This document shows, one piece after another, positions 9,125-42,943 of a stretch of DNA of 64,000 nt. Each line of letters opens with the position of its first letter. Position 1 is the stretch's first letter. The stretch comes from Dissulfurimicrobium hydrothermale (GTDB lineage: Bacteria > Desulfobacterota > Dissulfuribacteria > Dissulfuribacterales > Sh68), in contig NZ_CP085041.1 in the NCBI RefSeq assembly GCF_022026155.1, forward strand, positions 838,306 to 902,305. The letters run 5' to 3'. A model generated the notes under the pieces. It ran no database searches and was not told where the DNA came from. It worked only from the letters and a program-made list of their open reading frames with translations. The position numbers and the translations under genes were made by a program.

Positions 9125-9281
9125 GGATATTTTTTGTCGGAGTTTGGGCCGTATGCTTGACAAATTGTAGCATAGAATTACATTCAAAAATTGTTTAAGT
9201 TAATTGTCACACAAATAGATTGAATGCTAATTTAAGAAGGCTGTATACTTGATTGTCGGCAGTCGGAATATGGAGGAATAA

Positions 9282-10034
9282 ATGAAGATTGAAGAGATAG
9301 AAAAATTGAAAAACGAGGGCGTTGAGCACCTTCCTTCAAAAGAAAGACGTGATTTTTTACGGCTAGGTTTGGTTGTGACAGGTGTCTTTGCAGGAGGCTC
9401 GATTCTTTCATTGATGTCTGCAAAACGCGGTCATGCAGATGTCGAAGGGATTGTATTAAAACAATACAGCTATAAACCTCATTACAGCATGGTGATACGT
9501 CAGGATCGTTGCATAGATTGTCAGCGTTGTATGGATGCCTGTGTAAAGACCAATCACGTGCCGGATTATGGTTATAGGACAACGATTTTAGAAAGGGAGT
9601 TGGTTATCGGCCCTGGTTCAAAACAGCGGGAATTCATGCCTGTATTGTGTAATCACTGCAATCGTCCTCCATGTGTTAGAGTTTGTCCCACCAGGGCCAC
9701 ATATAAAGACAAAAAGACCGGTATAGTCAGAATGGATATCAAAAAATGTATAGGTTGTAAGACATGCATGGCTGCCTGTCCATATAATGCGCGTTATTTC
9801 AATGAAGAGATACGGGCGATCGATAAGTGCGATTTTTGTTGGGAAAATAGGTTGTCAAAAGGTGAGACCCTGACCGCCTGCGCCGCAGCTTGTCCGGCTG
9901 ATGTAAGAATCTTCGGGGACATCTCAGATCCTTCAAGCAGGGTTTATAAATTAGTGCATGAACCAGAGAGGGTGGTTTGGGTATTGAGACCTGAGACAGG
10001 GACCTTGCCTAATGTATTTTACACAAAAGGTTGA
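9282..10034 (+). CDS. TAT-exported ferredoxin with four [4Fe-4S] clusters (HybA/DsrO/NrfC-like)
   Basis: This is an electron-transfer subunit of the DmsB/HybA/NrfC class. A twin-arginine motif (RRDFLRLG, Arg22/23) followed by a hydrophobic stretch predicts folded export to the periplasm. Sixteen cysteines form four cluster sets: 77/80/83/87, 123/126/131/135, 156/159/162/166 and 183/186/200/204. The 250-residue length fits DsrO/HybA proteins. GGAGGA lies 6 bases before the ATG. A triheme cytochrome gene follows, then after a long gap an NrfD gene, so it probably docks on an NrfD quinone-interacting membrane subunit. No molybdopterin catalytic partner is adjacent. Confidence 0.88.
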   Translation: MKIEEIEKLKNEGVEHLPSKERRDFLRLGLVVTGVFAGGSILSLMSAKRGHADVEGIVLKQYSYKPHYSMVIRQDRCIDCQRCMDACVKTNHVPDYGYRTTILERELVIGPGSKQREFMPVLCNHCNRPPCVRVCPTRATYKDKKTGIVRMDIKKCIGCKTCMAACPYNARYFNEEIRAIDKCDFCWENRLSKGETLTACAAACPADVRIFGDISDPSSRVYKLVHEPERVVWVLRPETGTLPNVFYTKG

Positions 10035-10102
10035 TTAAAATTCTATCGATTTTATTGGACGCAAAACGAATAAATAAAACAGAAAATGCGAGGATGTGAT
10101 CC

Positions 10103-10486
10103 ATGAAAAAAATGATCGTAGTAGTTATATGTTCGATTTTTATTTGTTTATCGGTATGCCTTTCATATAAAATAGTTTTGGCTGGTGACGACGATGAAGG
10201 GGGAGGCCCAATACTTTTTACAAAACCTGTCAAGGCAGTACTTTTTGATCATAAAACGCATCTTGGTTTCGGCTATAGTTGCGAAGATTGTCACGATAAA
10301 CTTTTTGAAGAGGCAAAAGGTACGGCAGAGGAAAAAGGAGATTTTACAATGAAATCGCTTTATGCCGGAAAATATTGCGGTGCGTGTCATAATGGCGAGA
10401 CCGCATTTGCTTCAAATACAAAGTGCGCTGTTTGTCATATAGGCGTAAAGGGTATGAATCGTCTCACTAAGACCGGTAAAAAATAA
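10103..10486 (+). CDS. triheme c-type cytochrome, c7/c3-like, exported
   Basis: This 127-residue protein has an N-terminal signal sequence (hydrophobic residues 4-20, cleavage probably near Ala27) and three CXXCH heme sites at residues 60-64 (CEDCH), 92-96 (CGACH) and 108-112 (CAVCH). His50 and His53 in FDHKTH are probable distal ligands. Heme number and spacing match small c7/c3-type cytochromes of Desulfobacterota, not DsrJ, whose heme ligation pattern differs. It lies 68 bases after the ferredoxin gene and ends in a strong terminator, so the two probably form one transcript. Likely role: periplasmic electron shuttle for the ferredoxin/NrfD module. Confidence 0.88.
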   Translation: MKKMIVVVICSIFICLSVCLSYKIVLAGDDDEGGGPILFTKPVKAVLFDHKTHLGFGYSCEDCHDKLFEEAKGTAEEKGDFTMKSLYAGKYCGACHNGETAFASNTKCAVCHIGVKGMNRLTKTGKK

Positions 10487-10535
10487 TATCAAACGGTCTT
10501 TACTTTTAAAACTTTAAAAAATTTTTAATTGATCT

Positions 10536-10566
10536 AAGACCCAGCTTCATGCTGGGTCTTATTTTT
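10536..10566 (+). terminator. intrinsic terminator after cytochrome gene
   Basis: A perfect 10-base stem (AAGACCCAGC / GCTGGGTCTT) with a TTCAT loop is followed by ATTTTT. It lies 50 bases after the cytochrome stop and should end the ferredoxin-cytochrome transcript. Confidence 0.88.
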
Positions 10567-10618
10567 GGTCTTAATTATCTCATTTTAACAAGATTTTAAA
10601 TTCAAAAATTTTTTTAGT

Positions 10619-10661
10619 ACCGGTTTTTGAAAGCGGACCGCTCTCCGCTTTCAAATCCGGT
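10619..10661. repeat. GC-rich inverted repeat in AT-rich gap
   Basis: The inner arms GAAAGCGGA / TCCGCTTTC enclose CCGCTC, and outer arms ACCGG / CCGGT are separated from them by T/A-rich spacers. The element is nearly symmetrical on both strands and has no T-run next to it, so it does not look like a terminator. It may be a protein-binding dyad or a structured RNA element. Confidence 0.6.
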
Positions 10662-10812
10662 TGTCTGTTATCCTCGTCTATTTTTTATGTGTTATCCTAA
10701 GTTTTTTATCAAGCAAAAATAATGCCAAATCTGATTTCTATATTTATTTTTTTAATTAAATCAATAGAATAATTAGCATATAGATTTAAATTAACAAATT
10801 TAATTTATAAAA

Positions 10813-10876
10813 TTATAAAATTTTAGGCTAAAATTGCGCCACTTTTATAAAATTTTAGGCTAAAATTGCGCCACTT
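10813..10876. repeat. two tandem 32-base repeats, each with a palindrome
   Basis: The unit runs from 10813 to 10844 and repeats without change from 10845 to 10876. Each unit holds the dyad AATTTTAG-G-CTAAAATT followed by CGCCAC two bases later. The 32-base period is about three helical turns and puts both dyads on the same DNA face, which suggests paired operators. With two copies and no spacers it is not a CRISPR. Confidence 0.8.
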
Positions 10877-11065
10877 TTTCTTTTATAAAATTTAAAAAAA
10901 AATTTGAAAAAATTTTCGGGATTATTTTGCGTCGTCTATTATTTTTTAATAAATTTATTTTAAAAATTAATAATTTTAATTAAATCAATAAATTATTGAA
11001 TTTTTTTTTAAGATTATGATACATATTAAATGTGTATTTTATAGATATTTAAATTTAAATTTTTA

Positions 11066-11093
11066 TTGACAATTATAACTTATAATTTATATT
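11066..11093 (+). promoter_or_regulatory. candidate sigma70-type promoter for the NrfD transcript
   Basis: TTGACA (11066-11071) and TATATT (11088-11093) are 16 bases apart. They lie about 130 bases upstream of the 41-codon gene and downstream of the tandem dyads. The surrounding AT-richness raises the chance of a false match. Confidence 0.5.
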
Positions 11094-11101
11094 TTTTATA
11101 A

Positions 11102-11200
11102 AAGAGATCTTTAAGAAAATTAAAGAAAGGGGGTGCTGATATTAAGATAAATAAAATAAGATCTCTTCCAAATTTGTTTTGCCCGGCCGCTACCGGGGGG
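11102..11200 (+). promoter_or_regulatory. potentially structured 5' leader upstream of small ORF and NrfD
   Basis: AAGAGATCTT (11102-11111) pairs perfectly with AAGATCTCTT (11158-11167), enclosing a purine-rich AAAGAAAGGGGG. A second GC hairpin follows (CCCGG-CCGCTA-CCGGG, about 11182-11197), ending roughly 10 bases before the GAAGGAGG ribosome site of the small gene. It matches no riboswitch class that I recognise. Confidence 0.5.
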
Positions 11201-11222
11201 TTCTTGAAGGAGGTGCCAACAA

Positions 11223-11348
11223 ATGTTTAAAGGTCTGTTTTTCCTCGTCATGTGGATAGGTTGTGCGTCACTGCATACCTATTTTGATCTAAAGGTCAAA
11301 CCAGTGCTTAGTGAAAAAATAAAGCAATGGAGTGAGACCTATAAGTAA
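11223..11348 (+). CDS. 41-residue single-helix membrane protein, possible NrfD-complex subunit
   Basis: I do not recognise this protein. It starts MFKGLFFLVMWIGCASL, one hydrophobic segment (residues 4-18), followed by a charged amphipathic stretch rich in Lys and Glu. A very strong ribosome site (GAAGGAGG) lies 8 bases before the ATG, which argues that it is translated. It ends 49 bases before the NrfD gene and appears to share its promoter. By position it could be a small accessory subunit of the NrfD membrane complex, comparable to single-helix subunits of other respiratory complexes; this is inference. Confidence 0.65.
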   Translation: MFKGLFFLVMWIGCASLHTYFDLKVKPVLSEKIKQWSETYK

Positions 11349-11397
11349 CTTAAAGTAATTTATTAAAATTTAAATCTTTAAGAAGGAGTGTTATCCT

Positions 11398-12588
11398 ATG
11401 TCCGACGTAAAGACCGCTACATTAGACAAATCGCTGGTCGCAACATCAAGGGCCTATAATGCCGCAATAGCAATATTCGGCCTTTTAGCTGCCATAGGTG
11501 TTGCTTTTGGAATCGATGCCTTCATAGTTGGCCATAATCATGTCTATGGCGTAACCAGAGAGGTACCATGGGGTCTTTTGATCTCTACCTATGTTTTTTT
11601 TGTTGTCACATCGACCGGGTTGTGCCTTGTTTCGTCGATAGGGCATGTCTTTGGCACAGAGAGTTTTATGCCCATAGCCAAACGATCGGTTTTCCTGGCA
11701 ATAGCAACTATTATAAGCGGTTTTATGGTTATTGCATTCGAGATAGAAAATCCCTGGCGAATGGCTATCTATAACGTGATTTCTCCCAATTTGACTTCAA
11801 ATATTTGGTGGATGGGCACGCTCTATGGTGCATATCTTTTCTTCATGTTGATAGAGTTCGCCTTGCTGCAAATTGGACGCTACAAACAGGCATCCATGGT
11901 TGGGCTCTTAGGTGTTATTTCAGGTGTTGCCGCCCACAGCAACCTTGGCGCAGTCTTTGGGTTGCTTGCCGCGCGTGAATTCTGGCATGGTCCGCTTATG
12001 CCGATCTATTTTATTGCATCAGCCATGATGTCAGGCTGTGCCGCGGTCCTGTTTTTTACCTGGATAGCCTATAGGGCAAACGGATGGAAGATGAGCGTTG
12101 CAATGGAACGGTCTCTTTCTGCAACAGGAAAGCTCGGTTTGCTATTAATGGCCGTCATAATGTTTTTTACTTCATGGAAGATACTTGCAGGTATTGCTGG
12201 CAAGCCGCCTGGAGAGTATGAGGCTATGCAGGCCATATTAACAGGTAATTATTCCTTGAATTTTTGGGGCGGGGAGATATTACTCGGCATGGTTCTGCCT
12301 TTCATATTGATCTTAGCGGTAAAGGCAAAGAATCTCAAGGTCATGTTTTTTGCAGGGGCACTTTGTCTGATAGGTATCTTTTTTATGCGCTATGATTTGG
12401 TCGTTGTTGGACAGATCGTGCCCTGGACAGAAGGTATGGGGATAGTAGATATGCCGCGATATTTTTCTTATACTCCAAGTTTCTATGAGATCATGATAAC
12501 CATAGGCGGCTTTAGTTTCTGTGCGATGCTCTTTCTCATGGGAGAAAAACTCTTTAATGGACATCTGTCTGAGGAACATCATGGATAG
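11398..12588 (+). CDS. NrfD/PsrC-family polytopic quinone-interacting membrane subunit
   Basis: This 396-residue protein has about ten hydrophobic helices and the general architecture of NrfD/PsrC/DsrP/HmcC proteins, which exchange electrons between the quinone pool and a periplasmic ferredoxin subunit. Stretches such as VPWGLLISTYVFFVVTSTG near residue 58 and GAVFGLLAAREFWHGPLMP near residue 185 fit the family. GAAGGAG precedes the ATG. Its probable partners are the TAT ferredoxin and triheme cytochrome upstream, although these are on a separate transcript. The composition resembles Cbc-type quinone:cytochrome oxidoreductases of Geobacter. The 3' end overlaps the regulator gene by 8 bases. 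Confidence 0.87.
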   Translation: MSDVKTATLDKSLVATSRAYNAAIAIFGLLAAIGVAFGIDAFIVGHNHVYGVTREVPWGLLISTYVFFVVTSTGLCLVSSIGHVFGTESFMPIAKRSVFLAIATIISGFMVIAFEIENPWRMAIYNVISPNLTSNIWWMGTLYGAYLFFMLIEFALLQIGRYKQASMVGLLGVISGVAAHSNLGAVFGLLAAREFWHGPLMPIYFIASAMMSGCAAVLFFTWIAYRANGWKMSVAMERSLSATGKLGLLLMAVIMFFTSWKILAGIAGKPPGEYEAMQAILTGNYSLNFWGGEILLGMVLPFILILAVKAKNLKVMFFAGALCLIGIFFMRYDLVVVGQIVPWTEGMGIVDMPRYFSYTPSFYEIMITIGGFSFCAMLFLMGEKLFNGHLSEEHHG

Positions 12589-13003
12589 CCTCTTGGGATG
12601 TGCTGTGAGAAGGATTGACGAGGCGGCTGCTACGCCTATTTATTCAATAGGCGTAGCAGCCTATTTGTTGGATATGCATCCAAAGACATTACAGATGTTG
12701 GAGACCGAAGGTCTTGTTTATCCAAAATATAACGGATTTCTTAGATTATTTTCACAAGCCGATATCTATTGGCTTAGATGCCTTACGGCCATAATATATG
12801 AAATCGGTGTGACATTGCCTAGTTTAAAGAGATTGCTCCAACATACAACATGCTGGAAAATCTTAAATTGCAAAACTGAAACCAGGATGAGCTGTAAGGT
12901 CATAATGGGTGACAATCCTGCGATATGTTATACAGAAAGTCCCGGACACCCTCACGATATTTTGGTTGATTGTGCTATTATATCAAAGATTTCAATGAAT
13001 TGA
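12581..13003 (+). CDS. MerR/HspR-family regulator with Cys-rich C-terminus
   Basis: The N-terminal half (residues 19-85) has the MerR-type helix-turn-helix and wing: IYSIGVAAYLLDMHPKTLQM, then an EGLVYP turn and a short dimer region. The second half carries five cysteines (91, 97, 105, 116, 131), including a CWKILNC motif similar to CW-C motifs in other Desulfobacterota proteins, which could sense redox state or bind a metal. Its ATG overlaps the NrfD stop, so the two are translationally coupled and the regulator probably controls this module. A perfect 16-base hairpin lies within its first codons. The total length is 140 residues. Confidence 0.75.
   Translation: MDSLLGCAVRRIDEAAATPIYSIGVAAYLLDMHPKTLQMLETEGLVYPKYNGFLRLFSQADIYWLRCLTAIIYEIGVTLPSLKRLLQHTTCWKILNCKTETRMSCKVIMGDNPAICYTESPGHPHDILVDCAIISKISMN
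12625..12661 (+). repeat. perfect 16-bp inverted repeat inside regulator 5' coding region
   Basis: GGCTGCTACGCCTATT and AATAGGCGTAGCAGCC are exact reverse complements around a TATTC loop, 36 bases after the NrfD stop. No T-run follows. It could be a strong mRNA hairpin that limits regulator translation or stabilises NrfD mRNA, or a DNA operator. Confidence 0.8.
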
Positions 13004-13022: not shown

Positions 13023-13059
13023 ATGGGTCTGCATTGTGTTTTAGTCAGACCCATCCTTT
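13023..13059 (+). terminator. intrinsic terminator after MerR-type regulator
   Basis: The stem ATGGGTCTG / CAGACCCAT encloses a 14-base loop and is followed by CCTTTTT. It lies 20 bases after the regulator stop. Its right arm overlaps the 3' end of the convergent leftward gene, so the genes share their terminal region. Confidence 0.8.
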
Positions 13060-13850
13060 TTCCAAATCGCTGCACCGCACAGTTCCGTGAGTCTTGTCAG
13101 AAATATCCCTTCAAGCCTATTGGAATGCTCTTCCGTTTTATTTATTTGCTGTCGCTGGTATCTCTTTATGGAAATTCCAACCAATGTCTGATCCGTGAGA
13201 TTTGTGCGGGCACCGAGGACAAGCTTCCCAATCAAGTCTGACGATGGGAGGTTAATTTGTGACCAATTCCTGTCATCCATAAGCACAGTCTTGTCGTTGA
13301 ATATAGCTTCTTCTGCATAAGCGCGGCAGCCGAAAAAGATCTTTTGTTCATTGAAATTTTGTTTAAATATGTCTTTTAGAATACCAATTGAGTAAAGCCA
13401 TATTTCATCTTTATTTCCAAATAGTTCAGTTTGGTTAGATGTTTTTTTTAGTAAAATTTCGGCCTGTTGGTCTATTGTTTTGCCATAAGGACATCGATTT
13501 TCGTAGTTTAAAAGTGTCCATTCAAAAAGTTTTAGCAAGAGGAAAATTGCCGTTATTTTATCTTGTTTATTTTCTAATTCGCCTAAAAGAAGTCTTGAAA
13601 GCTGAGTTATTGTATTTGCTATATCATTGGGTAAATGATCTTTGAATATTTCTTCATCATATTTGCTTGTAAATGAAACTATTCCTTCTTCTTTTGCTAT
13701 TTTTGCTATAAAATTAGTTAATAAAATTTGTCCAATTTTTTGCCATTTATTAAGATTATCATATAATATATTTGTTAGTGCTATTTTAAATTTATAATCT
13801 TTTTCATTTATTATAGTATTTAATTTACTTTTTATTATTTTTAATTCCAT
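13041..13850 (-). CDS. hypothetical protein, 269 aa, AT-rich
   Basis: I do not recognise this protein. It has no signal peptide or clear membrane segment and looks helical. The C-terminal half has the few cysteines (in NRCPYG, FFGCRAYAEEA and ELCGAA) and moderate base composition, while the N-terminal half is coded by extremely AT-rich DNA. Its start ATG opens a Lys/Ile-rich segment. It is the third and last gene of a leftward AT-rich group (coiled-coil protein, universal stress protein, this gene), 15 bases after the universal stress gene, so co-transcription is likely. Its function is unknown. Confidence 0.7.
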   Translation of the reverse strand: MELKIIKSKLNTIINEKDYKFKIALTNILYDNLNKWQKIGQILLTNFIAKIAKEEGIVSFTSKYDEEIFKDHLPNDIANTITQLSRLLLGELENKQDKITAIFLLLKLFEWTLLNYENRCPYGKTIDQQAEILLKKTSNQTELFGNKDEIWLYSIGILKDIFKQNFNEQKIFFGCRAYAEEAIFNDKTVLMDDRNWSQINLPSSDLIGKLVLGARTNLTDQTLVGISIKRYQRQQINKTEEHSNRLEGIFLTRLTELCGAAIWKKDGSD

Positions 13851-42409: not shown

Positions 42410-42943
42410 ATGGCGCAAAGATGGTATATAATACATACATACTCCGGCTTTGAGACTAAAGTAAAAGAAGCCCTTGAAGAGAGGATAAAGCAGCATGGCC
42501 TTGAAGGATATTTCTCGAGCGTTGTCATCCCTACAGAAAATGTGATAGAGATTATCAAGGGGGATCGTAAGACATCATCTAGAAAGATTTATCCAGGCTA
42601 TGTCCTTGTAAGAATGGAATTTAACAATGAGACATGGCATTTGGTTCAAGAGACCCCGAAGGTTACCGGATTTGTAGGAGGGCATGATCACCCTGTGCCG
42701 CTTTCGGATGAAGAGGCTGAAAAGATTATACATCAGATGGAGGAACGGGCGCAGAAGCCGGTGCCTAAATATAGTTTTGAAAAAGGTGATAGTGTGACTG
42801 TAATTGAGGGTCCCTTTGCCAATTTTCATGGTGTTGTTGAAGAGGTCAAGCCTGAAAAGGGCAAGGTCAGAGTTTTGGTCTCTATATTCGGCAGGTCAAC
42901 CCCTGTTGAATTGGAATTCGCGCACGTCCAAAAGGTTATGTAG
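42410..42943 (+). CDS. nusG: transcription termination/antitermination protein NusG
   Basis: It couples RNA polymerase to the ribosome and Rho. The N-terminal NGN domain starts MAQRWYIIHTYSGFETKVKE, and the C-terminal KOW domain has KGDSVTVIEGPFANFHGVVE. ATG 42410 gives the normal 177 residues; an in-frame TTG at 42386 is less likely. It lies between secE and rplK. Confidence 0.97.
   Translation: MAQRWYIIHTYSGFETKVKEALEERIKQHGLEGYFSSVVIPTENVIEIIKGDRKTSSRKIYPGYVLVRMEFNNETWHLVQETPKVTGFVGGHDHPVPLSDEEAEKIIHQMEERAQKPVPKYSFEKGDSVTVIEGPFANFHGVVEEVKPEKGKVRVLVSIFGRSTPVELEFAHVQKVM

Follow-up and report, generated by a model that had tools for sequence, protein, structure and literature searches.

The window analysed here, 64,000 bases of the Dissulfurimicrobium hydrothermale Sh68T genome (one contig of 2,025,450 bases), comes from an obligate sulfur disproportionator (PMC8780430) and carries a gene module built around a quinone-binding membrane protein of the NrfD family. 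Searches of open reading frames and protein families identify an exported ferredoxin with four [4Fe-4S] clusters and a twin-arginine translocation (TAT) signal, a c7-type triheme cytochrome, a 41-residue membrane protein, NrfD and a divergent MerR protein. This is the gene set that a preliminary description, made from the letters alone, had named. Positions below are those of the window unless stated otherwise.

9282-10034, plus strand: TAT-exported ferredoxin, four [4Fe-4S] clusters, DsrO/NrfC/TtrB type (family models, sequence motifs)
10103-10486, plus strand: periplasmic triheme c7-type cytochrome, three CxxCH motifs (PF14522/TIGR04257)
10535-10561, plus strand: intrinsic terminator after the cytochrome gene (11 bp stem, U tail)
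11223-11348, plus strand: 41-residue single-helix membrane protein with a conserved HT(Y/F/I)xDLKxKP motif
11398-12588, plus strand: NrfD1, quinone-binding membrane subunit of the NrfD family (PF03916, 112.7 bits)
12581-13003, plus strand: MerR/HspR-like regulator (PF13411), a divergent copy with a C-x5-C-x5-7-C tail, overlapping the NrfD stop codon

As previously claimed, no catalytic subunit is encoded in the module locus, and the terminator lies where the ferredoxin-cytochrome transcript would end. The intervening gap, first given as 735 bases, measures 736 (10487-11222) and contains two RNA hairpins that had gone unreported. The same gene set is kept in other genera, so its assembly at this locus is not a matter of chance. 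The AT-rich spacer upstream of the NrfD transcript also holds a perfect 32-bp direct repeat in tandem (10813-10876). A 21-residue match to the 41-residue protein at position 42431 was taken as chance.

The four cluster motifs of the ferredoxin hold 16 cysteines, and its TAT motif reads SKERRDFL. The protein scores below the cut-off of the DsrO model (172 bits against 200) and far below that of QrcC (101 against 400), and is thus not a QrcC orthologue. The cytochrome matches none of the DsrJ models, in line with the earlier statement that it is not DsrJ-like; its best solved-structure match is 3ov0, a cytochrome c family protein. Outside the CxxCH motifs it has only two histidines, H50 and H53, each 100% conserved, and M83 is 98% conserved. 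These residues make it probable that two hemes are bis-His and one is His-Met, with M83 as the predicted ligand.

The NrfD protein belongs to the NrfD/PsrC superfamily by its PF03916 match, its fold of 8-10 helices and its quinone-site residues, and comes near the cut-off of none of the NCBIfam equivalog models HmcC, DsrP, NrfD and HybB. The HmcC model gives 55.6 bits against a cut-off of 550 and the DsrP model 50 against 350; the locus offers neither the HmcC orthologue and 16-heme HmcA of HmcABCDEF nor the DsrP-type NrfD and DsrJ cytochrome of DsrMKJOP. We placed the protein in a tree of 98 rows, 68 of them family members, with reference labels assigned by gene content except for HmcC and Qrc. 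The 68 family NrfDs form a single clade, with a Shimodaira-Hasegawa-like approximate likelihood ratio test (SH-aLRT) value of 97, separate from HmcC, Hmc-like, Nhc-like, Hyb and QrcD proteins and from the organism's own DsrP. The tree check proposed in the preliminary description therefore leaves NrfD outside the DsrP, HmcC and QrcD clades. Molybdoenzyme NrfDs are the closest rows outside the family clade; several of the reference branches are long, and their precise positions are unsure. Within the family, the basal branch comprises NrfDs serving molybdoenzyme-like subunits (loci L086, L087, L186 and L187; a molybdopterin domain is confirmed in L087), and the sub-clades are NrfD1, to which the window protein belongs, an operon type, NrfD2 and NrfD3; the organism's copies of the last two lie at genome positions 994,833 and 469,002, respectively.

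Three quinone-site positions of QrcD have been probed by mutation (PMC13059093). The equivalents in the window NrfD are E117 for D120, an invariant S134 for S138 and an invariant Y65 for D70. The NrfD2 proteins likewise retain the quinone-site residues, which rules out the idea that NrfD2 is a dead, ActF-like subunit. An AlphaFold model of NrfD, with a predicted local distance difference test (pLDDT) value of 83, is matched by ActC of alternative complex III at a template modelling (TM) score of 0.80, and also by PsrC.

To place the module among related bacteria, we used 41 genomes of the order (the organism's own, one of the same family and 39 of the same order) and 395 genomes of the phylum Desulfobacterota. 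The ferredoxin and a family NrfD occur in an identical set of 27 of the 41 order genomes, mostly as one ferredoxin with one to five NrfDs. In the phylum, 43 genomes encode the ferredoxin and 49 a family NrfD, the latter including all 43 ferredoxin bearers. QrcC was found in 135 phylum genomes at E <= 1e-60 and over its cut-off in 65, but in none of the 43 ferredoxin genomes, where 14.7 were expected at the former threshold; the chance of zero overlap is 4e-9 and 3e-4, respectively, with no correction for phylogeny. An exported [NiFe] hydrogenase is encoded in 22 of the 27 module genomes of the order versus 3 of the 14 others (p = 4e-4, uncorrected). One family that mostly lacks the module (f2) appears to resemble the syntrophic Seep-SRB2 group.

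The module is common in Desulfobulbales, Dissulfuribacterales and Thermodesulfobacteria, with bearers that include Desulfobulbus elongatus, D. rhabdoformis, D. alkaliphilus, Desulfofustis, Desulfogranum marinum, Desulfogranum mediterraneum and Thermodesulfatator autotrophicus. Murali et al. describe Desulfobulbales, Thermodesulfobacteriales and Dissulfuribacterales as lacking Qrc and Rnf (PMC10553843). With Qrc reported absent, the module is a concrete, conserved candidate for the route by which periplasmic electrons enter menaquinone in these orders, and cultured strains that carry it include Desulfobulbus elongatus, D. rhabdoformis, Desulfogranum mediterraneum and Thermodesulfatator autotrophicus.

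In other families the genes form compact, direct NrfD-ferredoxin-cytochrome operons that contain no catalytic gene, which speaks for the three proteins forming one complex. Since related lineages hold the same genes in a single compact operon, the split of the window locus into two transcripts is probably derived.

We consider it about two-thirds probable that the module encodes an enzyme-less menaquinone:cytochrome c oxidoreductase that stands in place of Qrc, with one shared soluble pair and exchangeable NrfD subunits. NrfD would bind menaquinone within the membrane, and electrons would move through the exported ferredoxin between the quinone site and the triheme cytochrome, which in turn would give electrons to, or take them from, the pool of cytochrome c in the periplasm. 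The 41-residue protein is a putative small accessory membrane subunit. Such a complex would probably replace QrcABCD as the route into menaquinone for electrons released in the periplasm by hydrogenase, or possibly derived from formate or sulfur, in a transfer that would be reversible in principle. The ferredoxin-cytochrome pair would be the common soluble part and the NrfD paralogues its exchangeable membrane parts.

Several points weigh against this proposal. The statistics for co-occurrence and for Qrc exclusion carry no correction for phylogeny. Family NrfDs occur without the ferredoxin in six phylum genomes, and a molybdoenzyme-like subunit adjoins in the four loci read, so belonging to the family does not on its own mean that an enzyme is lacking. 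Two or three ferredoxins are encoded in some genomes. A recognised exported hydrogenase is missing from some module genomes, which together with the obligate disproportionation of D. hydrothermale makes the electron donor uncertain.

Enzyme-less NrfD modules are already known, among them NhcABCD, the Geobacter Cbc4 complex (CbcSTU), SirCD (PMC11434368) and a locus of cable bacteria, and the suggestion in the preliminary description of an undescribed type of complex is therefore too strong. Cbc4 also supplies the alternative that we weigh most seriously while judging it unlikely, namely that the module is an ordinary menaquinol oxidase passing electrons from the quinol pool through c7 cytochromes to an extracellular or periplasmic acceptor. 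Its three gene types, a c-type cytochrome, a ferredoxin and NrfD, are identical to those of the module, and it is likewise an enzyme-less menaquinol:cytochrome complex (PMC11434368, PMC10989804); moreover, NrfD-ferredoxin-cytochrome operons occur in families that also hold PpcA-like cytochromes, and the organism's own NrfD3 gene has a decaheme cytochrome and an MtrB-like porin in its vicinity. Nevertheless, PpcA-model scores fall below cut-off, CbcS of G. metallireducens is tetraheme where the module cytochrome is triheme, no paralogue switch is reported for Cbc4, and extracellular electron transfer is not known from most bearers, which are sulfate reducers or disproportionators. The comparison of NrfD with CbcU was by gene set.

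Less probable still is a detached electron-transfer part serving the unlinked catalytic subunit of a periplasmic sulfur or molybdenum enzyme. Molybdoenzymes are linked both to the nearest clade outside the family and to the basal branch within it, and a 1074-residue TAT protein is encoded elsewhere in the genome; that protein, however, has an adjoining NrfD and ferredoxin of its own, the compact operons of other families lack a catalytic gene, and the cytochrome supplies the module's electron exit. It is very improbable that the NrfD-MerR transcript is an unrelated neighbour of the ferredoxin-cytochrome transcript, with no complex formed, since the split, separately promoted arrangement seen here and the separation in several relatives are outweighed by the identical presence pattern in 27 of 41 genomes, the direct operons elsewhere and some loci of the Desulfobulbales type (L160, L162, L163) in which NrfD1, ferredoxin and cytochrome genes form a run.

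The proposed Qrc substitute differs from each known system that it resembles. NhcABCD, described as a TpIc3:quinone oxidoreductase (PMC8076601), shares with it (as does Hmc) a multiheme cytochrome, a four-cluster ferredoxin, an NrfD-like protein, a small subunit and the lack of a catalytic subunit. Unlike NhcABCD, the module has an NrfD outside the HmcC/NhcC clade (the Nhc-like references being set by gene content), three hemes rather than the nine of NhcA, Tyr rather than Asp at the QrcD D70 position, and a membrane part that is split off and duplicated. It shares with QrcABCD the proposed role between periplasmic c-type cytochromes and menaquinone, and two of the three probed quinone-site positions are conserved or conservatively replaced, but it lacks a QrcB-like subunit, QrcD falls in a separate clade and the two share no genomes in our sample. 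The TMH1-DsrOhPh-tetrahaem locus of cable bacteria combines a small one-helix protein, ferredoxin, NrfD and c-type cytochrome, also enzyme-less and in sulfur metabolisers (PMC13047784), but its NrfD lies near DsrP, with which the module NrfD does not group (20% identity to the organism's own DsrP). Alternative complex III provides the best structural match in ActC and also has two NrfD-like subunits; in contrast, the module locus has no ActB molybdo-like domain, pentaheme ActA or ActE, and its second NrfD is separately regulated.

Relatives of D. hydrothermale show how the paralogues are arranged. In Desulfobulbales the run comprises the 41-residue gene, NrfD1 and MerR1, a PAS/sigma-54 activator, the ferredoxin-cytochrome pair, a second small membrane protein, NrfD2 and MerR2, and Dissulfuribacterales have rearranged forms of this order. 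The activator, found by tblastn, lies close to and divergent from the ferredoxin gene in 32 of 56 cases. In Desulfobulbales (L079, L080, L151 and others) a membrane protease of the FtsH type, identified by its AAA and M41 domains, is encoded divergently from NrfD1 to the left of the 41-residue gene, in some loci followed by an octaheme cytochrome. D. hydrothermale itself carries an orthologue of the activator (66%), a MerR gene, NrfD2 and another MerR gene at 992-996 kb of its genome, which puts NrfD2 and the activator about 145 kb from the NrfD1-ferredoxin-cytochrome locus. One soluble pair would thus be shared by several NrfD paralogues, which would make the split of the locus meaningful.

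The regulatory features of the window are as follows.

9157-9184, plus strand: promoter-like TTGACA-16-TACATT upstream of the ferredoxin gene (consensus match only)
10626-10655, strand unassigned: hairpin H1, 12-bp stem, loop CCGCTC on the plus and GAGCGG on the minus strand (z = -6.2)
11066-11093, plus strand: promoter TTGACA-16-TATATT of the 41-residue gene and NrfD transcript (11 of 12 consensus positions)
11129-11135, plus strand: purine box GGGGGTG (relatives have AAAGGAGGTG), 58 nt upstream of the H2 loop
11182-11197, plus strand: leader hairpin H2, CCCGG-CCGCTA-CCGGG (21.7 bits, its own copy being in the training set)

In relatives, TTGACA occurs in 57 of 72 NrfD1 leaders (8 expected), and 27 of 44 NrfD2 loci have a sigma-54 site ahead of the gene, versus 0.12 in shuffles. 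The NrfD2 gene of D. hydrothermale has a weaker GG-N10-GC sigma-54 site, AGGTATCCATCTTGCA. Counts of such sites upstream of the ferredoxin (2 of 68) and NrfD1 (2 of 72) are near chance, which makes sigma-54 control of the ferredoxin-cytochrome transcript improbable despite the neighbouring activator.

The loop CCGC(C/T)A is present in 63 of 72 NrfD1 leaders against 3.1 expected. RNAalifold recovers the NrfD1 hairpin unaided, with compensatory change at nine of nine pairs and a covariation score of 0.907, which drops to 0.257 in shuffles and does not exceed 0.26 once the hairpin is slid. Rows of alignment A2 were chosen by their loop alone, a few ambiguous ones being omitted by hand; those of A3 were chosen by stem, which biases its pair counts. 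The window leader by itself is not stabler than shuffles (z -0.4), so the support for H2 is comparative. By a strict rule, the sense-strand loop UGGCGG occurs in 11 of 42 NrfD2 leaders and 25 of 31 divergent FtsH leaders, which never carry CCGCCA, and in none of the NrfD1 leaders; ferredoxin leaders have neither loop. The two loops are exactly complementary (-9.9 kcal/mol); in the variant CCGCUA, a G-U pair preserves the match. Across 26 whole genomes the UGGCGG model gives 13 hits at E < 1e-3, 11 of them at module NrfD loci, and it gives none at that threshold in five module-less genomes. These hairpins form a covarying RNA element for which Rfam holds no curated family above threshold.

The opposite leader hairpins of the NrfD paralogues suggest a respiratory chain able to swap its quinone-reactive subunit. 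In relatives the choice of membrane part would be set by the PAS/sigma-54 activator, the MerR proteins and the leader hairpins. A tentative scheme, to which we give only a low probability, joins loop kissing and FtsH: firing of the activator would produce NrfD2 and FtsH from sigma-54 promoters, the NrfD2 and ftsH leaders (UGGCGG) may kiss and silence the NrfD1 leader (CCGCCA), and FtsH would remove NrfD1, so that one ferredoxin-cytochrome pair would switch quinone partner. The family clade, the design with one soluble and several membrane parts, and the leader hairpins appear to be new; the literature searched contains no published description of them, which is not proof of absence.

Overall, these data suggest that the quinone subunit is exchanged under regulation, in a system that D. 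hydrothermale has partly lost. Separate regulation of the soluble and membrane parts, which the preliminary description had read from the split, is borne out in relatives by promoters, sigma-54 sites and hairpins. H1, a very stable hairpin, sits where relatives have the FtsH or NrfD2 leader hairpin, and its minus-strand loop GAGCGG could form five of six pairs with H2, whose CCGCTA sequence is intact; its function in D. hydrothermale is doubtful because the FtsH and NrfD2 neighbours are gone. No open reading frame is conserved on a consistent strand between the two hairpins. The gene of the linked MerR regulator is present, and the C-x5-C-x5-7-C tail is found in 114 of 115 MerR proteins, but the window copy is the weakest of its genome (34.7 bits versus 63.6-69.9 for the other four), no MerR was detected downstream of NrfD in the nearest relative, and the linked protein is probably not a working regulator here. 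No shared operator palindrome for MerR was found upstream of the 41-residue gene.

Several smaller observations accompany the module. Some NrfD1 leaders (for example L126, L095 and L036) carry an AAGGAGGTGA box 40-80 nt 5' of the CCGCCA hairpin with no obvious start codon near it; the box, which matches the 3' end of 16S rRNA, resembles a stabiliser Shine-Dalgarno sequence. On the minus strand at 13041-13850 lies a gene for a 269-residue protein without a Pfam match, 26-45% conserved near NrfD1-MerR in other Dissulfuribacterales. At genome position 1,161,597 (L194) the organism encodes a longer, cysteine-richer MerR with the same cysteine tail, distant from the NrfD genes found. In locus L026 (genome 460,500-478,500; 4808-9663 of that locus), genes for a decaheme cytochrome and for an outer-membrane porin of MtrB/PioB type lie close to NrfD3, which might give this obligate sulfur disproportionator a conduit for electrons to the cell exterior; the region is adjoined by a Mutator-type transposase. 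Another genome (G020; L040/L069) has a run of a hexaheme cytochrome, NrfD, ferredoxin and a 19-heme cytochrome, possibly an outward electron route.

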